Origin: Candidatus Saccharimonadota bacterium | GTDB lineage: Bacteria; Patescibacteriota; Saccharimonadia; Saccharimonadales; AWTP1-31 | Length of the DNA: 38,617 nt | Assembly: GCA_026395435.1 (NCBI GenBank) | Contig: JAPLYT010000001.1 | Span: forward strand, 1 to 38,617 | Direction of reading: 5' to 3' | Part shown: positions 4,858 to 38,617 of the stretch, one piece after another | Layout: every line of letters begins with the position of its first letter | Numbering within the stretch: the first letter of the stretch is position 1 | Program-made: the position numbers and the translations under genes | Notes under the pieces: generated by a model | The model's input: only the letters and a program-made list of their open reading frames with translations | Told to the model about the DNA's origin: nothing | Databases searched by the model: none

Positions 4858-5385
4858 CTAATCCCCAAGAGTTAGGCGTTCTAGGTCAACTACTTTTTTA
4901 CCATCGTATTCGACTATGTAGAGTTCATTAATTCTGCCAGTAATGATTTTGTTTCCATCATTTATATCACCTACGAGTCGTTCAATTTCAGAACGATCAT
5001 TGTTTGTTCCGAGACCAACGTGCGGGATGAACGGGATGTCGTGTCTCAGTTCACTTGAAAGTATGCCGGTATATAGTACGTCATGAAGTTTGTTGATCAC
5101 ATCGAAACCCTGAGATGGAATTAAAAAAGCATGAAAGAATTTTTTTGAGTCGTCTTCAACTAATTTTGCTGAATCGAGTGTAATGTTAAATGCGCCGGTT
5201 CCTTGAATTTTAGTCTTAATATGTCTCGAAAAAGTATCCAGATCCAGTTTTTCCGTTGCAAAAACAATAGTAAAGTGTGGCTCAACCACACCGTAGTATC
5301 TTTTATCTTCTTTACTACGGATAGCTTGAATCCAGTCGTAATCTGGTTTACTGAGTGTTGGATATGCTAGCACAAGGTAAGACAT
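4858..5385 (-). CDS. 2H phosphoesterase / 2'-5' RNA ligase-like protein
   Basis: Two spaced H-x-x-x motifs typical of the 2H fold: PHFTIVF and PHVGLG, about 80-100 residues apart in a 175-aa protein. Confidence 0.7.
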   Translation of the reverse strand: MSYLVLAYPTLSKPDYDWIQAIRSKEDKRYYGVVEPHFTIVFATEKLDLDTFSRHIKTKIQGTGAFNITLDSAKLVEDDSKKFFHAFLIPSQGFDVINKLHDVLYTGILSSELRHDIPFIPHVGLGTNNDRSEIERLVGDINDGNKIITGRINELYIVEYDGKKVVDLERLTLGD

Positions 5386-5394
5386 AACAATAGT

Positions 5395-6045
5395 TTACCA
5401 TTCTCTCGATCTATACACGTGAGACTGTTGCTGGTCTTTGATATGTGTATGCCAGTTCTGCATAAAAACATTTAGTGCATTCAAAACACCGACTCCTATA
5501 CCATGGCTCATTACTTTTGCCAGACCACGCTTACCTTCTTGTTCGAATCCGTAATTAGCTTGAGCTATAAGTTCTTCTAGAGCAGTAAGACTTAGATTAT
5601 CAACGGCTTTATAGACTTTTGATGGTAAACATTCCTCATCTAAAAAGGTCGCTGGTAGATCTAGGAATAACTCGGGTACATGTTCAAACTCGGTACTTCC
5701 TTTAACGCGGTCCAAGTGTTTCGAGCGTTGTAATGTAAATAATTTTCGGCAGATAATTCCTGCCCATACTGAACTCCCGACTCCACATTCAACGAGCCGT
5801 TGTTGAAATTCGGTCTTCGATATGACAACTTGCATCTTCTCTGTTTCCGCTTGACTCGTAAAAGCAATATTACCAACTGTCTGAGCCTGGTCGATGGTAA
5901 TAGAGCCAATAGGTGTTTCACCTTCGTTGGGTATCGGAAAGTCTTCTTCACCACGCCAAGACTCCCATGTTTGGGCACTCATTGCGGTACCAATGCCAGT
6001 AGCACATTCCATATCCCAGTAATTAAATCGAGTATCTATACTCAT
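5395..6045 (-). CDS. hypothetical protein, 216 aa, downstream of structured leader A
   Basis: ORF; GAAAGGATACTATAATG gives an RBS just before ATG at 6045. Confidence 0.75.
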   Translation of the reverse strand: MSIDTRFNYWDMECATGIGTAMSAQTWESWRGEEDFPIPNEGETPIGSITIDQAQTVGNIAFTSQAETEKMQVVISKTEFQQRLVECGVGSSVWAGIICRKLFTLQRSKHLDRVKGSTEFEHVPELFLDLPATFLDEECLPSKVYKAVDNLSLTALEELIAQANYGFEQEGKRGLAKVMSHGIGVGVLNALNVFMQNWHTHIKDQQQSHVYRSREW

Positions 6046-6192
6046 TATAGTATCCTTTCAAATTAAAAAATCAGTCGGTGAAGCCTGATCATAGGACTGT
6101 GCTGAAGCATTATTTGCTCAGGCTTCAACGATATTGAAGCACAGTCCATGTAGACTGAGGAGTAGCTGCAACTGGTTGAAAACTGAAATCAT
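6046..6192 (-). promoter_or_regulatory. structured 5' leader A (candidate riboswitch-like transcription attenuator)
   Basis: Homologous to 9954-10112. Core 6065-6160 on minus strand: CUCAGUCUACAUGGACUGUGCUUCAAUAUCGUUGAAGCCUGAGCAAAUAAUGCUUCAGCACAGUCCUAUGAUCAGGCUUCACCGACUGAUUUUUU. P1 10 bp, two inner hairpins, terminator-like hairpin with U6. Confidence 0.7.
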
Positions 6193-6199
6193 AAATAAC

Positions 6200-6227
6200 A
6201 TTATAACACCAGAACATAGATTGTCAA
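6200..6227 (-). promoter_or_regulatory. sigma70-type promoter for leader A
   Basis: Minus strand TTGACA (6227-6222), 16-nt spacer, TATAAT (6205-6200): both consensus hexamers. Confidence 0.8.
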
Positions 6228-6323: not shown

Positions 6324-6698
6324 TTAGACGAGTTCTACAGTTGCGCCAGCGGCTTCGAGAGTTTTCTTAGCTGCTTCTGCGTCTTCTTTTTTAGCTTTTT
6401 CGAGGACAGTTTTTGGAGCACCGTCTACGATTGCTTTTGCTTCACCAAGACCGAGGCCAGTGATTTCTTTTACAGCTTTGATAGCTGCAACTTTTTGTGC
6501 ACCAGCGTCCTTAAGAACGACATCATATTCGCTCTTTTCGTCTGCTGCTGGAGCTGCGTCTGCTGCAGGTCCTGCGACTGCAACTGCTGCTGCAGCTGGT
6601 TCAATGCCGTATTCGTCTTTGAGAATCCCAGCGAGTTCGTTTACTTCTAGTACAGTTAGCCCAACGAGCTGTTCTGCAAATTTCTTTAGATCTGCCAT
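6324..6698 (-). CDS. rplL: 50S ribosomal protein L7/L12
   Basis: [38 protein letters not shown]...[66 protein letters not shown]. Start set at internal ATG 6698 with SD GAAAGGA; the ORF track start at 6758 is too long. Confidence 0.97.
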
Positions 6699-6717
6699 GT
6701 GATTAGTCCTTTCGGGA

Positions 6718-7242
6718 TTAGTTTGCTGCCTTAAGCTCAATTGCTTGAAGGAGACCATGTAGGTTACCAGTAAGACCGCTCATGACACCATTAACTGGTG
6801 AGTTGAGGGTATTGATGATACCTGCGATTAATTGATTCTTGCTTGGCAAGCTTGCGAGTGCGGTGACGTCTGCTGCGCTCATGAATGTTCCATCTGAGCT
6901 GATAGCTCCAACGAATTGTATCGTTGGGTTTGTCTTTGCAAACACGGCAAGTGCTTTAGCGGGAGCGACTTCGTCGGTATCGTTGAAAGCGTAGATTAAT
7001 TGACCTTTAAGTGCGCTGACATCAGCGTCTTTGAGGGTTTCGTTACTCTGCACTGCTTTGATAACGAGTCGGTTCTTTGCGACCTTGACCACGGTTCCGT
7101 CTGCTTTAGCATCGCGGCGAAGTTGCTGTAATGCTTTTACAGTGGTTCCTTGGTAGGCTGCAACAACGGTCATCTTCGAACTTCCAAGCAAGCTTGTTAC
7201 TTCGTCAACGACTTGTTGTTTACTGTCTTTGGTTAGTGCCAT
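6718..7242 (-). CDS. rplJ: 50S ribosomal protein L10
   Basis: [63 protein letters not shown]; adjacent to rplL. Confidence 0.95.
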
Positions 7243-7299
7243 ATAAAATTACCCCTTGGTTATTAGTCAGATCGACCATCCTGACACGTTACCGCCTTA

Positions 7300-7435
7300 A
7301 ACAAAAATGTCCCTGGTGAAACCAGAGACAGATGTTCAAAGCTGAAATAAATTACGTATGTAAGTCATTTCTACCTCGGTAGCGTATTAAGCTATTGCTA
7401 GCTGCTACTGTCTTTGGTAACGATAGCTCCATTTT
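7300..7435 (-). promoter_or_regulatory. L10-type ribosomal protein leader with attenuator hairpin
   Basis: Minus strand CGTTACCAAAGACAGTAGCAGC...GCTTAATACGCTACCGAGGTAGAAATG matches the known L10-leader core pattern (AAAGACAGUAG ... CUUAAU..CUACCGAGG). It is followed by TGTCTCTGGT-TTC-ACCAGGGACATTTTTGTTT. Confidence 0.85.
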
Positions 7436-8046: not shown

Positions 8047-9546
8047 TTATATGAATAGCTTGATCGATTGCCCCGTAAGTACACGGAAGTCATATCCTGT
8101 ATTCTCAATTGCCTTGATTAATGAAAATGGCTCAGCTGCCTCAAAACCAATAACGACGCTTCCGGTGTCGAGACCCTGCCCTCGATAATGGAAGAGGCTG
8201 ATATTCCAATTGTCGCCCATCTTTTGCAAGAAATCTTGGAGTGCTTTTGGTCGTTCAGGAAAATTAATTTCATAGAGTTGTTCGTTGTTAGCTTCACTGC
8301 TTTTACCACCAATCATATGGCGAATATGCTCTTTGGTGAGATCGTCGTCCGATAAATCCTGAAACGTATATTGGTGTTGTTTGAGTTTTGAAAGTAGATG
8401 TTGCTTGTCGTTAGCGTCACGAAGATTTATCCCGATGAGGATGGTGGCATCAGATCGTTCATGTAGGCGATGGCTAAACTCGCTGATACTGTGGTCGCCT
8501 ATTATCTCACTACAAAATGCATGGAGGGCACCTGGTTTTTCTGGTAGGGTGACGGCAAATAAGGCCTCCTTGTTGCTGCCCAGCAGAGTTCGTTCTGCCA
8601 CAAACTGTAATCGCTCAAAGGTCATATTGGCACCCGAACAAATGGCAACACACGTGGCTTGGCTCAGATCATTTTCTTTTGAATATTCTTGCAAGCCAGC
8701 AATGCCAAGCGCGCCGGCTGGCTCCACGATAGCCCTCGTTTCCAGATATATTGACTTAATGGCTGCGCAAATCTGATCATTGTTTACGGTGATCATTTCG
8801 TCGACGTACTTTTGGGCTATATCGAATGTGAGCTCTCCGACTTGCTTCACGGCAACTCCGTCAGCAAATATACCCACATGATCAAGCACGATACGCTTAT
8901 CGGCAGCGAGCGATGCTTGCATGGCATTGCTATCATCGGGCTCCACGCCAATGATTTTTATTTCTGGCCGGAGCGTTTTGATGTATTGGGCGATGCCAGC
9001 CAGCATACCCCCGCCGCCAACACATATGAATATATGCGTCACGTCAGGAAGTTGGTCGAGAATCTCAAGTCCGATTGTTCCCTGCCCGGCGATAACGAGC
9101 GGGTCGTCAAATGGGTGTATGTACGTCCGACCTGATTTGGCAACCAATGTTTGAGAATGGTCAAACGCTTCGGAATAACTATCTCCTGAAAGTACCACGA
9201 CTGCTCCGTAACCTTTTACTGCTTCAATCTTAATTGCTGGCGTTGTCCGGGGCATGACAATGATTGCAGAGATACCTAATTTTTGAGCACTCAGCGCAAC
9301 GCCTTGCGCGTGATTCCCCGCACTAGCGCAAATGACACCTCGGTCTTTTTCTTGCTGAGTCAGGCTGGCTATTTTGTTATACGCACCACGAATTTTGAAT
9401 GAGTGAACTGGCTGCAGATCTTCTCGTTTGAGATAGACCTGCGTGCCAAGTTCATTGCTCAGAGTAGCTGCCTTTTCGAGGGGCGTTTTTATAGCAACGT
9501 CATATACATGGGTTTGTTTAGTTTGGTTTACGGGGTCGTTCATCAT
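8047..9546 (-). CDS. ilvA: threonine ammonia-lyase (biosynthetic type, with C-terminal ACT-like domains)
   Basis: VYLKREDLQPVHSFKIRGAYNKIASL PLP-lysine motif, SAGNHAQGVALSAQKLG, GGGGMLAGIAQYIK; C-terminal ACT-like repeats. Confidence 0.95.
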   Translation of the reverse strand: MMNDPVNQTKQTHVYDVAIKTPLEKAATLSNELGTQVYLKREDLQPVHSFKIRGAYNKIASLTQQEKDRGVICASAGNHAQGVALSAQKLGISAIIVMPRTTPAIKIEAVKGYGAVVVLSGDSYSEAFDHSQTLVAKSGRTYIHPFDDPLVIAGQGTIGLEILDQLPDVTHIFICVGGGGMLAGIAQYIKTLRPEIKIIGVEPDDSNAMQASLAADKRIVLDHVGIFADGVAVKQVGELTFDIAQKYVDEMITVNNDQICAAIKSIYLETRAIVEPAGALGIAGLQEYSKENDLSQATCVAICSGANMTFERLQFVAERTLLGSNKEALFAVTLPEKPGALHAFCSEIIGDHSISEFSHRLHERSDATILIGINLRDANDKQHLLSKLKQHQYTFQDLSDDDLTKEHIRHMIGGKSSEANNEQLYEINFPERPKALQDFLQKMGDNWNISLFHYRGQGLDTGSVVIGFEAAEPFSLIKAIENTGYDFRVLTGQSIKLFI

Positions 9547-9581: not shown

Positions 9582-9953
9582 TTACGCCGGGAGGTCTGCC
9601 CGATCAGTTCCCTGAGGTACTGTTACTATTGCCGGAATATCAAGGATACCTTCGGTGCCAGAATAGGGTATTAGAACGCCTTCAATCTGTACTCCGTGCG
9701 CGTCTTGATAATGCTTTGCCCACTCTCCTGCTGCTAGCGTACTTACTCGAATAAGACGTTCAAAGTGTGGTGCCATGTCCTCATGTTCCTGTGCGGCTGT
9801 TTGGTATCGGTCAATGTCAAAGCTTAAACGTGCGAGGATCCGTGATAGTTTCTCTTCTTTTGTCCGTGGGTCACGATCTAGAACAGCTTCCTCTTCTTTG
9901 GTATAGGGCCTCACTTTTCGGGGGTTTTCCGTTGTTTCGTATTCAGTAAACAT
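9582..9953 (-). CDS. hypothetical protein, 123 aa, downstream of structured leader B
   Basis: ORF; AAAGGAAGAACTATG gives a good RBS. Confidence 0.7.
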   Translation of the reverse strand: MFTEYETTENPRKVRPYTKEEEAVLDRDPRTKEEKLSRILARLSFDIDRYQTAAQEHEDMAPHFERLIRVSTLAAGEWAKHYQDAHGVQIEGVLIPYSGTEGILDIPAIVTVPQGTDRADLPA

Positions 9954-10112
9954 AGTTCTTCCTTTACATTAAAAAATCAGGCGGTGAAGCCTGATTGTGA
10001 GCTGTGCTAGGCGGTGGTACCGCTCAGGCTTCAGTCATGGTGAAGCACAGCCCTGTAAGTCTGAGGCTGAGAATAATTTGCTGTGTAGTTTTTTGCACGC
10101 GTTGATTCATTA
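9954..10112 (-). promoter_or_regulatory. structured 5' leader B (second copy of the candidate attenuator)
   Basis: Core 9971-10065 on minus strand: CUCAGACUUACAGGGCUGUGCUUCACCAUGACUGAAGCCUGAGCGGUACCACCGCCUAGCACAGCUCACAAUCAGGCUUCACCGCCUGAUUUUUU. Same architecture as leader A. Confidence 0.7.
9971..9996 (-). terminator. intrinsic terminator within leader B
   Basis: Minus strand AATCAGGC-TTCACC-GCCTGATT followed by TTTT: 8-bp stem plus U-run, about 15 nt before ATG. Confidence 0.8.
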
Positions 10113-10118
10113 CATCTA

Positions 10119-10147
10119 GTTATAGCAAGAAGTTACAGATTGATCAA
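10119..10147 (-). promoter_or_regulatory. promoter for leader B
   Basis: Minus strand TTGATC (10147-10142), 17-nt spacer, TATAAC (10124-10119). Confidence 0.65.
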
Positions 10148-10157
10148 GGATACGCGG

Positions 10158-12488
10158 CTAGGACATTTGATTGAGCTTGAACTGTGTGTAGCGTTCTGCG
10201 GCCAGGCGGGTGAGTTCTTCGTCCTCACCTTGATTGACGAATTTCATCGCTTCAGCAAGCATCGGGTGAACCTGGGCGACTTTCTCGTGCATTTGTTGGA
10301 CAAGTTTGCGATAGCCAGGGTGGCCTTGCGGGCTGGTGCGCAATTCGTGGAAGTGGAATGCCTCGCGGGCGTTGTAAGTCATCTTCCATCGCATGCGGTG
10401 TCCGAGAAGCGTGGCATATTGCGCTTCGAGAGCATAGCCTTTTTCTTGGAGCAAGCTATAGAGCCCGAGGCTAATATCGAAGCATTCTTCGAAGAGATCG
10501 ACGAGATCAGCATCCTCAACAAGTTTAGGAAGTTCATAACCGTATCTCGGTGTAAGCTGTTGCCATTCGAGATCATCGACCATGCGGTGTCGTTGGAGGT
10601 CACGGAAAATTCCATAGTCACACACCAAGTCCCAACTGTAGTGGGCTTTCTCGAGAGCTCGCCCTGGTTTGTGTCGACGATTAAGCCGTTCACCGACGTA
10701 TGCGGTCAGGACTGATGATTTCTGGCCATATGACCACTCGGCTACCTGCTGTCTGATCTCATCCAATGATAAGTGGCTTTGGTCGTAGAGCATGTCGGGT
10801 ACGAGATCGAATTCGTTACGTGGCCATACGTCAGTAAGTCGAACGGGCTGCTCGTGTTGGCCGTAGTTTTCGGGGAGTAACTCGTGGGCAATGTCCGCCA
10901 CTGCTTTGGCAGTGTTGGCACGGTAGGCGATGAGTGCCCCACCACGATCTGGCTTGTCGGCTCGCTCGAGGAATGTTGGCAATACCTTTCTGGCTTCTTC
11001 GAGCAGAGCATTCCCGGCAGTAATTGCTTCGGGGAGTGGATCACTCAGTAAATGCATAATGAGGCTTTCAAGTGATTGGCCGGATGCATAGATCCCGACG
11101 GTAGATTTAGTAGCTACCGGTAGTACTGCTCGAATGGCGTCGCAGGCTTGTGCCCGGGTAGCACCTTTCCAGGCGATATCCCGCTCTTCTGCCGGAGTAG
11201 ATGACTGGTCTTGCACGTAGGCGGTGAGCTTGTGAACCATTTCTGAATATTTATCGAAGATACGATCCATGGCATGAATGTATGAGGCTTTGGTGGCGTC
11301 GTCGAAATGAGTCGGCGTGTGATAGCGATAGTTGCCATCAGTGTCTTTTTGATCGAAATAAATATAGCGAGTTGACTGCTCCAGATAGGCTGCCAGTCTG
11401 CCCCACTCAAGTTTTTTGGTCAGCAGATTGCTGGCGTTTTCGAATACAAAATGGAGACCCACTAGTTGCTGGACGGAGTCATCGCCGTAGGCGGTAATAA
11501 CGCGTTGCAATAGTTTCTGGTCTTTGCCGGCAGCCCCTGCAAATTCGTCGAGGATGGTGATACGCATATCGTCACTTCGACGGCTCAAGCGAGCCATGGC
11601 GGCTGCAATCATGGTAGGACTCAGATGTTCCGTGAAGGCATAGACGTCGCCGGAAGCGTCGGTCACGGCATCCTTCAAGAATTCATTTCCACGGGGTGTA
11701 ATGGTGTAATTGCCATCTTTGCTTTTGATGACAAATTTTTCTTTGTCAGACACGACTGCCACTTCAGGAGTGACGGCTTGAAGAACTGGCTTGGCTGATT
11801 TGGCTGGTAGCATAGGCTGTATTGTCTCCCACAGGTAGTTATTGATAGTGTCTATATCGAGTAGCTGACCGCTTCTGACGCAGTCAATTCGCTTAAAATC
11901 TCGCGGGAATAGCTGGCACAGATCGTCGTATACTTCGACTGATTTTTGGAGGTGCGCAAGATCTGCTTCGTGGATGTCGCGCTTTCGATCGGTATATTCA
12001 CGCGTCTCTTTTTGATCGACTAATTGTTGCGCGGTTTCTGCCGGGACTCTAAGCACGAAGCTTTTGTGTGGACGAGGTATTTTGAGCATGACAAATTCGA
12101 GGTTATCGAGCCAGATGAAGTAGCCGCGGCGTTCTTCTTCGTTCCGGAATTTGGTGCCCTGGTGAGCCATGTTGGATCCAGTAAAACGGTTGGCCAGGAC
12201 TACTTTACCCTCGCTGAGTGCCTTTCGAATTTCGGTAGACGCTTCATAGCGATCGAGTGCGTAAAACAGCGAGCCGGTGTATGGACCGACGTCTTCGGCA
12301 GTGCCATATTTTCCGTTGAGATATTCTTTTACAAAAAAACTGGAAGGATGTGAATACTGCGGGAAATCAAACGTCGCTACATCGTAGCCATTATTTCGAA
12401 GTCGCTCGGCCAGCAGCGTAAACTGCGTGCCCTTGCCTGATCCATCGGTCCCTTCTATGACGATAAATAAACCTTCTGTGCTTTGCAT
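10158..12488 (-). CDS. fusion protein: dTMP kinase (N-term) + tandem ThyX-like flavin-dependent thymidylate synthase domains
   Basis: N-term IVIEGTDGSGKGTQFTLLAERLR...ANRFTGSNMAHQG (Tmk). Then two ThyX-like units: ...WGRLAAYLEQSTRYIYFD and ...LQRHRMVDDLEWQQLTPRYGYELP. Start at 12488 (SD GGAAGGACAGATC) preferred over 12509. Confidence 0.85.
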   Translation of the reverse strand: MQSTEGLFIVIEGTDGSGKGTQFTLLAERLRNNGYDVATFDFPQYSHPSSFFVKEYLNGKYGTAEDVGPYTGSLFYALDRYEASTEIRKALSEGKVVLANRFTGSNMAHQGTKFRNEEERRGYFIWLDNLEFVMLKIPRPHKSFVLRVPAETAQQLVDQKETREYTDRKRDIHEADLAHLQKSVEVYDDLCQLFPRDFKRIDCVRSGQLLDIDTINNYLWETIQPMLPAKSAKPVLQAVTPEVAVVSDKEKFVIKSKDGNYTITPRGNEFLKDAVTDASGDVYAFTEHLSPTMIAAAMARLSRRSDDMRITILDEFAGAAGKDQKLLQRVITAYGDDSVQQLVGLHFVFENASNLLTKKLEWGRLAAYLEQSTRYIYFDQKDTDGNYRYHTPTHFDDATKASYIHAMDRIFDKYSEMVHKLTAYVQDQSSTPAEERDIAWKGATRAQACDAIRAVLPVATKSTVGIYASGQSLESLIMHLLSDPLPEAITAGNALLEEARKVLPTFLERADKPDRGGALIAYRANTAKAVADIAHELLPENYGQHEQPVRLTDVWPRNEFDLVPDMLYDQSHLSLDEIRQQVAEWSYGQKSSVLTAYVGERLNRRHKPGRALEKAHYSWDLVCDYGIFRDLQRHRMVDDLEWQQLTPRYGYELPKLVEDADLVDLFEECFDISLGLYSLLQEKGYALEAQYATLLGHRMRWKMTYNAREAFHFHELRTSPQGHPGYRKLVQQMHEKVAQVHPMLAEAMKFVNQGEDEELTRLAAERYTQFKLNQMS

Positions 12489-12527
12489 GATCTGTCCTTC
12501 CCCCACCACAGTTTAGGTCGTCGCGTA

Positions 12528-30703: not shown

Positions 30704-30967
30704 TTACTTTCTGTATATATCTTTTCGGTGTTGAACTAGCAATATAACAATATTATTTTTCTCGATATCAAATAGGACTCTATAATTTCCTACCCTAAAT
30801 CTGTATTGAGCGTCAGCTGGTTTTGTAAGTGCCTTAGCAAATATCAGCGGGTCTTCTTGGCTTACGAAGAACTCCAGCTTGATTTGCAGACGTTTTTTAA
30901 TTTGCGGGCTAAGTTTTTGTATCGATTTTACAGCAACCTTTTTATAGAGAAGCTGATATTTAGCCAT
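30704..30967 (-). CDS. RelE/ParE superfamily toxin
   Basis: YQLLYKKVAVKSIQKLSPQIKKRLQIKLEFF...YRFRVGNYRVLFDIEKNNIVILLVQHRKDIYRK. Confidence 0.85.
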   Translation of the reverse strand: MAKYQLLYKKVAVKSIQKLSPQIKKRLQIKLEFFVSQEDPLIFAKALTKPADAQYRFRVGNYRVLFDIEKNNIVILLVQHRKDIYRK

Positions 30968-31209
30968 TAAATGGCTCCAAATACCTGTGCGTGGCTGAAG
31001 TATTCTTTACTCTCCCGGGCTTCTTTTATCGTGCTTAGATACTCGGGGTCGGCTACCGCTAAAAGATCTTCTAGTCTATCTAGGTCGATAATTGCTCGTT
31101 CTTTTTTACCGCGACGAGTAACAATAAGTATTTCATCATTGTTTATGGCATCCAATGAATCTGCGAGATTTCCTCGTAATTCTGAGACGGTTAAAGTTTT
31201 GGTACTCAT
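30967..31209 (-). CDS. Phd/YefM-type antitoxin
   Basis: LTVSELRGNLADSLDAINNDEILIVTRRGKKERAIIDLDRLEDLL; immediately upstream of the toxin. Confidence 0.8.
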   Translation of the reverse strand: MSTKTLTVSELRGNLADSLDAINNDEILIVTRRGKKERAIIDLDRLEDLLAVADPEYLSTIKEARESKEYFSHAQVFGAI

Positions 31210-36764: not shown

Positions 36765-38617
36765 ATGTTTAAGATAAAAAAACAAATGGTTAAATACTCA
36801 CTAAGAATTTTGGTACCTTTTTCATTGCTTTCAATTTTTGCGCTACCTGCTCTTATGAATACCCCGGTCCATGCCTTATCAAGCTCTGATTTTGTGACTA
36901 CTTGGAAAACTGATAACCCTGGTGTTTCAAATAGTACTTCGATTACGGTTCCAATGATTGGGGTCGACAATTATAGCGTCGATTGGAACAACGATGGAAT
37001 CTTTGATGAAACTGGCTTAAACGGATCCACTACTCATGATTTTGGATCTGCAGGGACCTACACTATTAGAATCTCAGCGCCTACTGCTAGGATATATTTT
37101 GGCAATAACGGCGACAAAGATAAGATATTAAACATTAGCCAATGGGGTACAACGGCTTGGACTGATTTCTCAGATGCGTTTAGTGGATGTAGTCATATAG
37201 ACGTAACGGCAACAGATTCTCCGGATTTAAGTCAGGCTACTAGCTTGGCGAGTATGTTCAGAACGGCGTCTTCACTGGTCGGTAACTCATCATTCAACAA
37301 TTGGAATACTTCGACGATAACAGATTTGGGAAGTATCTTTTTCAATGATCCGCTCTTCAACCAAGATATTAGCGGCTGGAACACTAGTAATGTAACTTCT
37401 ATGGGTCAAATGTTTCAAGGAGCATCTACCTTCAACCAAGATATTAGCGGCTGGAACACTAGTAAGCTAACTTCGGCGTATTATATGTTTGCCGATGCTA
37501 TAGCCTTCAACCAAGACATCAGTGGATGGAACGTATCTAAGGTAGAAACTTTTACCGGCATGTTCGTTAATGATCCGCTCTTTAACCAAGACATCAGTGG
37601 ATGGAACACGAGCAGTGCAACAAACTTTAGCTGGATGTTTAGTAATACAACTCTATTCAACCAAAATATCGGTGGCTGGAACACCAGCAAAGTTACCGAT
37701 ATGAGCTATATGTTCTATGTTTCTCAAGTTTTCAACCAAGATATCAGTGGCTGGGATACTAGTAAGGTTACCGATATGAGCTATATGTTTACCTATAATG
37801 CTATTTTTAATCAGAATATTACAGGCTGGGATACTAGTAAGGTTACCGATATGAGCTATATGTTTAAACAGGCCTACGGGCTTAACCAGAATTTAGGCCT
37901 TTGGGACGTTACTAGCGTGACCAACATGACCGATATGTTCAAGAGCGTAACGCTACCTACTGCTACCTACGACGCTATACTTATGGGTTGGTCGGCAGAA
38001 ACGCTAAAAAATAACGTAACATTTAATGCCGGTAATAGCCGTTACTGCGCCGTAGAAGCTCGAGATGCAATTACGACCAATTATTCTTGGACAATACAAG
38101 ACGGCGGTCCTTCTATTTGCGATACATCAAACGATGTAACTCTTACTACAACTGATGGAATCGATGTTATTAAGGAAGGAAGCACCGGCTACCAAACCAC
38201 CCAGACTATTACCAACAATGGACCGCTCAGTGTCGATACTATTAATTTTAGTTTGGACCAAAATGACTGTATAAGTATCACTTCTACATCTAACAGTGGT
38301 GATGCTACAACATTAGGTTCCATTACTAGCCAAACCTGGACAGGCTTACTCGAAACTGGCCAGACACTCACTATTACCTACAACGCAGACATCACCTGTA
38401 GTGGTGGAAGTACTATTACGTTTGATAACCCAATAACTAGCATGGCCTACATAGGCTTTACACTAACTGATACCAATTCTTCTAATAACAGCGATAGCGT
38501 CGACCAGACATTAATTTTGGGCGTAGATCTAAGTATTACAACCACCGACAATTTAGATGATATTTTGGAAAATTCCACCGGCTACCAAACCACCCAGACT
38601 ATTACCAACAATGGACC
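36765..38617 (+). CDS. BspA-like DUF285-repeat surface protein with downstream DUF11-like domains, truncated by window edge
   Basis: MFKIKKQMVKYSLRILVPFSLLSIFALPALMNTPVHALS signal peptide; repeats FNQDISGWNTSKVTDMSYMF; then TGYQTTQTITNNGPLSVDTINFSL modules. Open to the edge so absent from the ORF track. Confidence 0.9.
   Translation, partial: MFKIKKQMVKYSLRILVPFSLLSIFALPALMNTPVHALSSSDFVTTWKTDNPGVSNSTSITVPMIGVDNYSVDWNNDGIFDETGLNGSTTHDFGSAGTYTIRISAPTARIYFGNNGDKDKILNISQWGTTAWTDFSDAFSGCSHIDVTATDSPDLSQATSLASMFRTASSLVGNSSFNNWNTSTITDLGSIFFNDPLFNQDISGWNTSNVTSMGQMFQGASTFNQDISGWNTSKLTSAYYMFADAIAFNQDISGWNVSKVETFTGMFVNDPLFNQDISGWNTSSATNFSWMFSNTTLFNQNIGGWNTSKVTDMSYMFYVSQVFNQDISGWDTSKVTDMSYMFTYNAIFNQNITGWDTSKVTDMSYMFKQAYGLNQNLGLWDVTSVTNMTDMFKSVTLPTATYDAILMGWSAETLKNNVTFNAGNSRYCAVEARDAITTNYSWTIQDGGPSICDTSNDVTLTTTDGIDVIKEGSTGYQTTQTITNNGPLSVDTINFSLDQNDCISITSTSNSGDATTLGSITSQTWTGLLETGQTLTITYNADITCSGGSTITFDNPITSMAYIGFTLTDTNSSNNSDSVDQTLILGVDLSITTTDNLDDILENSTGYQTTQTITNNG
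37356..37900 (+). repeat. 75-bp (25-aa) tandem coding repeats
   Basis: TTCAACCAAGATATTAGCGGCTGGAACACTAG... recurs at 75-bp spacing, about 7 copies. Confidence 0.9.
38183..38224 (+). repeat. 42-bp direct repeat, identical to 38576-38617
   Basis: CACCGGCTACCAAACCACCCAGACTATTACCAACAATGGACC appears twice, offset 393 bp (131 codons). Confidence 0.95.

Follow-up and report, generated by a model that had tools for sequence, protein, structure and literature searches.

The contig JAPLYT010000001.1 of a Candidatus Saccharimonadota bacterium (assembly GCA_026395435.1), analysed here over positions 1 to 38,617 of its forward strand (38,617 nucleotides, nt; hereafter the window), carries two copies of a leader element, copy A (6046-6192) and copy B (9954-10112). 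This element is very probably a ribosome-mediated leucine/isoleucine transcription attenuator, representing a new family of the trp/leu kind and not a riboswitch. The copies are homologous and have in common a promoter, a closing helix (P1), an antiterminator formed by segments 2 and 3 (2:3), and a terminator formed by segments 3 and 4 (3:4). Each also contains a leader-peptide open reading frame (ORF) of 24-28 codons that starts 7-8 nt past the -10 element and stops inside segment 2. The initial annotation described copy A as a riboswitch-like attenuator whose ligand could not be named. Its promoter, P1, 10-nt complementarity between segments 2 and 3, and terminator ahead of the ribosome-binding site (RBS) were all found on the minus strand where it had placed them, and the second copy that it pointed out proved homologous to the first. 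The leader ORF was missed in both copies, and here the riboswitch part of that description is not supported: the supposed aptamer overlaps an ORF that is conserved, leaderless, and rich in Leu/Ile codons, and these codons fit the gene that follows.

In the proposed mechanism, the leaderless leader peptide would start at the 5' end of the predicted transcript, with a run of control codons, Leu in copy A and Ile plus Leu in copy B, just ahead of the structured region. With ample charged tRNA, the ribosome would reach the stop codon in or just after segment 2 and mask that segment, and 3:4 would terminate transcription. If charged Leu- or Ile-tRNA runs low, the ribosome would instead halt on the control codons and cover segment 1 together with the 5' arm of P1; this would leave segment 2 to pair with segment 3, and the gene would be transcribed. 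If no ribosome is present, P1 and the 1:2 pairing would hold segment 2, again leading to termination. In the source organism, an apparent auxotroph for branched-chain amino acids (BCAA), orphan proteins and IlvA would be switched on when leucine or isoleucine is short. This direction of the response, like the stalling itself, is predicted from the arrangement of the parts.

The open frame and the position of the start codon define the short leader ORF expected of such an attenuator, and its translation is predicted. The frame is open through codon +6 in 72 of the 73 anchored elements. When the 57 promoters scoring at least 8/12 were considered, an ATG or GTG 5-11 nt past the -10 element was found 56 times in the ORF frame, versus 0 and 1 times in the two remaining frames; several elements without ATG have GTG at the same place. 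Codon -6 encodes Leu in 70/73 elements, through CTC, CTA, CTT or CTG, and at the Leu codons -6 and -4, neither of which lies in a helix, the third base changes without loss of the amino acid. Codon usage within the run is skewed: CTC and CTA account for 71% of its Leu codons (32% in the background), and ATT for 92% of its Ile codons (40%). Sensing of Cys or Phe, considered in view of the near-invariant UGC UUC, was rejected because these bases lie in P1 and 1:2, where RNA pairing explains them.

At loci with BCAA genes of assigned function, the control codons correspond to what the operon does. Downstream proteins include clusters of LeuA-like (15 loci), IlvA (13), IlvB (4), and RidA (7) proteins; for leuA, ilvA, and ilvB, cluster representatives were confirmed by NCBIfam and Pfam. 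Leu codons mark leaders ahead of leuA-like genes and Ile codons those ahead of ilvA or ilvB, with Ile codons occurring in the run at 1/15 leuA-like loci versus 15/17 ilvA/ilvB loci (Fisher p = 7e-6, a value that, like the rank p value given below, is optimistic because the homologs are related). An operon with a leuS-like gene, encoding a leucyl-tRNA-synthetase-like protein identified from its own sequence alone, likewise has a Leu-type leader. Because conserved codons of the ORF match the downstream gene, a translating ribosome most likely acts as the sensor, with charged Leu- or Ile-tRNA as its signal.

As the initial annotation had proposed, a covariance model was built from copies A and B; it was searched against 295 genomes of the same order (Saccharibacteria). 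Matches were obtained in 73 of these genomes, and about 74 elements in 68 genomes had E < 1e-3. The element is present in about a quarter of the sampled genomes of the order, with one or two elements per carrier genome. The strongest homolog outside the source genome had E = 1e-22, most homologs have a coding ORF just downstream, and a second model confirmed most elements in an overlapping genome sample. In 380 genomes of the phylum beyond the order, the second model gave two matches (E = 0.002-0.007, per genome), in line with the chance expectation. A mobile repeat was rejected, since the source genome contains only two copies, both in 5' leaders. Single-sequence folding was only moderately better than that of shuffles (z = -2.3 and -2.9), and it is the homologs that settle that the element is real.

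Covariation supports both helices on which the switch depends. For the 2:3 pairing, with segment 3 located by its own consensus, 92.6% of cells were canonical and double-sided changes occurred at 7/10 pairs; for P1, the values were 97.0% and 4/9 pairs. None of 2000 partner shuffles was as good in either case, results that are strong hints rather than formal probabilities, since the shuffles keep column make-up and not relatedness. Compensated 2:3 pairs are exemplified by UACUGAGGCC with GGCCUCAGUA (locus L083) and UGGAGAAGUU with AACUUCUCCA (L112), and compensated P1 pairs by CUCAUGC with GCAUGAG (L096). The third hairpin of the junction is conserved in neither sequence nor length. Both the sequence and the 2:3 covariation point to an antiterminator and an intrinsic 3:4 terminator that are mutually exclusive. 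With homologs recovered, covariation among them, and the position in the 5' untranslated region kept, the transcriptional attenuator logic of the initial annotation stands.

The initial annotation assigned this element to no known leader class, and the Rfam searches agree: at gathering and permissive thresholds neither copy gave a match, nor was there a credible weak one, and the sole Rfam match in the window was an L10 leader (7293-7435). A T-box was rejected because its model yielded nothing at E values as high as 5; near copy B, the UGGUACCGC string that was considered as a T-box motif lies on the opposite strand within a palindromic hairpin and is missing from copy A. For ilvB-OMG, ilvB, and ilvB-II, no Rfam match was obtained in the window or in 17 homologous loci, in searches for which it was not checked whether Rfam includes models of these motifs.

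Partition-function folding, in which the ribosome was taken to cover 13 nt counted from the A site, was only partly supportive and was rejected as proof of the switch. The mean probability of 2:3 pairing was 0.34-0.39 for A sites near codons -5 to -1. It did not exceed 0.02 when the A site was at codon -6.3 or farther upstream, and it was about 0 once the A site lay downstream of codon +1 (codon +2 onward). The antiterminator window in equilibrium folding thus spans codons -5.5 to 0 and includes the Leu codons at -4 and -1. Several observations weigh against the proposed attenuator. The Ile codons, at -9 to -7, lie upstream of the permissive window; even inside it the terminator is slightly favoured on average, so that an appeal to co-transcriptional kinetics is needed; copy B adopts the terminator fold at each of the stalls tested; the gene behind copy A has no known BCAA role; and the relatedness of the homologs tempers the p values. 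As for the position of the Ile codons, either co-transcriptional kinetics, RNA polymerase pausing, or a larger footprint matters, or the Ile run acts unlike the model.

The genes that the element is predicted to drive encode isolated LeuA, IlvA, or IlvB enzymes, or small orphan proteins in which the sensed amino acid is scarce. In genome G000, searches found no ketol-acid reductoisomerase (KARI), LeuA-family, or IlvD gene. KARI was absent in 67/69 carrier genomes and IlvD in 68/69, and the same searches were positive in all 14 reference genomes. Because KARI and IlvD are absent, the carriers are, as judged from their genomes, apparently BCAA auxotrophs in which the controlled enzyme is a lone committed step. 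A LeuA-family gene lies directly behind the attenuator in 15/15 genomes that have one. The allosteric LeuA_dimer domain was absent from 6/10 LeuA-like proteins scanned, and the regulatory C-domain from 3/10 IlvA proteins. LeuA-like enzymes without LeuA_dimer were seen directly behind attenuators at L037, L038, L045, L049, L070, and L072, in genomes without KARI and IlvD.

At the other loci, the first gene is small (50-220 aa). The Leu/Ile content of these proteins is anticorrelated with the leader codons (rho -0.52, optimistic p 0.005, 27 clusters), and controls with other residue pairs or with the next long protein were null. Such avoidance of the sensed residue fits expression during a shortage of that amino acid. 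A Y[ASD]G[TDES] motif was found, usually near the C-terminus, in 12/39 first-gene small proteins versus 0.43 expected, and YAG occurs in the N-terminal extensions of three IlvA proteins (L056, L094, and L099). Fast-evolving small proteins with a Y[AS]G[TE]E-like motif, often with a C-terminal ...PA, were noted in the window (9582-9953) and at L039, L041, L046, L053, L076, L083, and L112. At L041 (genome G133), a gene on the opposite strand, located behind the small gene of the element, encodes a branched-chain-aminotransferase-like protein, as read from sequence.

The 216-aa protein encoded behind copy A had been called an orphan, and it is one within the genomes covered: relatives were absent from 148 related genomes and a GTDB scan. 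Its only Pfam match was Aca2_YdiL, below the cut-off of that family, and single-sequence AlphaFold gave no usable fold (predicted local distance difference test score, pLDDT, 36). The copy A terminator hairpin, with U6, directly precedes the RBS of this gene, and the 9-nt gap to the next gene suggests that the pair is co-transcribed.

A metabolite riboswitch or protein-binding attenuator, in which the P1 three-way junction would be an aptamer for a ligand or for the encoded protein, is very unlikely. In its favour, the junction is conserved together with P1, for which covariation is seen, and 41 elements are located upstream of rplJ and on its strand, which places them close to a gene with an RNA leader of its own in the window. 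The third junction hairpin, however, varies in sequence and length, unlike an aptamer core, and the nucleotides under conservation form codons of an ORF whose start position is strict. Codon identity, moreover, tracks gene function. The encoded proteins differ by locus, which excludes a common autoregulator. The conserved aptamer core and non-coding leader of a riboswitch are thus not seen: the conserved part is coding, the junction hairpin is variable, and no Rfam riboswitch was matched. An arrest-peptide attenuator of the TnaC/ErmCL type, in which a nascent ...GLCFxMVEA peptide would stall the ribosome on a small molecule and not at hungry codons, would account for the near-invariance of GLCF and VEA. 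These residues coincide with paired nucleotides, however, and they do vary, in several cases with compensated pairing (DSCF at L096, GQCF at L065, CSSLVGA at L107, and CPKYIEA at L080). The constraint therefore appears to act on the RNA rather than on the peptide. The match of Leu and Ile to gene type would also be left unexplained, and peptide arrest is likewise very unlikely.

The absence of KARI and IlvD from almost all carriers would also be expected if the element were a relic, inherited from a BCAA-prototroph ancestor and without regulatory value in today's auxotrophic epibionts. Open ORFs, compensatory changes, conserved promoters, and gene-matched Leu/Ile swaps show continuing selection, however, and different new genes stand behind the element in different lineages; a relic is hardly credible. 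The coordinates of the parts of the proposed ribosome-mediated attenuator are collected in Table 1.

Table 1. Predicted parts of the two attenuators and the genes behind them
Feature	Position	Strand	Remarks
Promoter, copy A (TTGACA-16-TATAAT)	6227-6200	minus	12/12 consensus, sigma-70; TTGACA-like -35 recurs at most homologs
Leader-peptide ORF, copy A (MISVFNQLQLLLSLHGLCFNIVEA, then stop)	6118..6192	minus	Leu type; ATG 6192-6190, 7 nt past -10, leaderless; in-frame stop UGA 6120-6118, within segment 2
P1 5' strand, copy A (GGACUGUGCU)	6147-6138	minus	codons Gly-Leu-Cys; 3' end overlaps segment 1; P1 covaries
P1 3' strand, copy A (AGCACAGUCC)	6103-6094	minus	pairs with GGACUGUGCU
Segment 2, copy A (UGAAGCCUGA)	6127-6118	minus	contains leader stop codon; 2:3 covariation
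Segment 3, copy A (UCAGGCUUCA)	6088-6079	minus	antiterminator 3' arm and terminator 5' arm; complementary to UGAAGCCUGA
Segment 4 and U-run, copy A (terminator 3' arm)	6065..6076	minus	sequence
216-aa orphan gene regulated by copy A	5395..6045	minus	
Second gene of copy A unit, 2'-5' RNA ligase superfamily protein	4858..5385	minus	PF13563, E=2.9e-16
Promoter, copy B (TTGATC-17-TATAAC)	10119..10147	minus	weaker match
Leader-peptide ORF, copy B (MNQRVQKTTQQIILSLRLTGLCFTMTEA, then stop)	10110-10024	minus	Ile/Leu type; ATG 8 nt past -10; ends at equivalent UGA
Attenuator, copy B	9971..10053	minus	P1 10053-10044/10008-9999; segment 2 10033-10024; segment 3 9994-9985; U-run ends 9971
Gene regulated by copy B, 123-aa small protein	9582..9953	minus	C-terminal PYSGTE...LPA motif
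Second gene of copy B unit, ilvA, biosynthetic threonine ammonia-lyase	8047..9546	minus	TIGR01124, 694.9 bits vs cut-off 411.3

In the window, copies A and B flank rplJL (6324-7242), and at 41 fetched loci the element lies upstream of rplJ-rplL (encoding L10 and L7/L12) on the same strand. Other features of the window include a single 783-aa ORF (10158-12509, minus strand) that appears to be a Tmk-ThyX fusion, its thymidylate kinase domain preceding ThyX (Thy1, matched in two stretches); a Phd/YefM antitoxin and ParE toxin pair (30704-31209, minus strand); and a large, probably surface-exposed protein with DUF285 repeats (36765-38615, plus strand; E=2e-89).

The element may tell Saccharibacteria when the supply of leucine or isoleucine runs short. 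In a 2024 review, the control of differentiation between the host-attached and the free state of Patescibacteria was called completely unknown, and free cells were presumed to be starved (PMC11665869). As a compact putative amino-acid sensor, the element points to genes that would be wanted during a shortage of leucine or isoleucine. It also poses a puzzle: a single committed-step BCAA enzyme is retained, together with a BCAA attenuator, in genomes from which the remainder of the pathway is missing. A speculative and rather unlikely reading is that these cells, unable to make Leu or Ile, read the host supply by the switch and, once it falls, express the single committed-step enzymes and the fast-evolving small proteins, which would push BCAA production by the host or otherwise extract these amino acids from it. 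If so, the LeuA-like, IlvA, and IlvB enzymes, several of them without feedback-inhibition domains, or their products would reach the host.

In the literature searched on leader peptides, BCAA, and leaderless genes in Saccharibacteria, where subscription journals were thinly covered, no title or abstract described the element; neither the family, the leaderless peptide, the P1 architecture, nor the presence in apparent auxotrophs was found described. Its segments 1:2, 2:3, and 3:4 are those of the trpL, leuL, and ilvL attenuators, and the skewed choice of control codons is also known from classical amino-acid attenuators (PMC1183508). In contrast to trpL, leuL, and ilvL, the leader peptide of the present element is leaderless, its P1 encloses segment 2 and a variable hairpin in a three-way junction, its carriers lack the pathway, and it resembles no Rfam model. 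Attenuation in response to cysteine is known for leaderless small ORFs of mycobacteria. Short leaderless ORFs at the starts of mycobacterial transcripts (PMC4633059) resemble the present leader ORF in this respect and differ from the present element in sensed amino acid, RNA architecture, and phylum. The BCAA operon of Staphylococcus aureus has a leucine-rich attenuator peptide (PMC5794164). The likeness lies in a Leu-rich leader peptide controlling BCAA genes, whereas S. aureus has BCAA synthesis and CodY and the present carriers have isolated genes without the pathway.

The closest parallel in print is ilvB-II of Corynebacterium with its relatives ilvB and ilvB-OMG (PMC10272879). These RNA motifs precede BCAA genes, and BCAA-rich upstream ORFs (uORFs) were later recognised in them; one of the motifs had first been rated a weak riboswitch candidate. 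They belong to another lineage and are set apart from the present element by description. Unlike them, the present scaffold swaps Leu and Ile codons and also fronts orphan genes outside BCAA metabolism. It would be a further case in which an apparent riboswitch candidate is a uORF attenuator.
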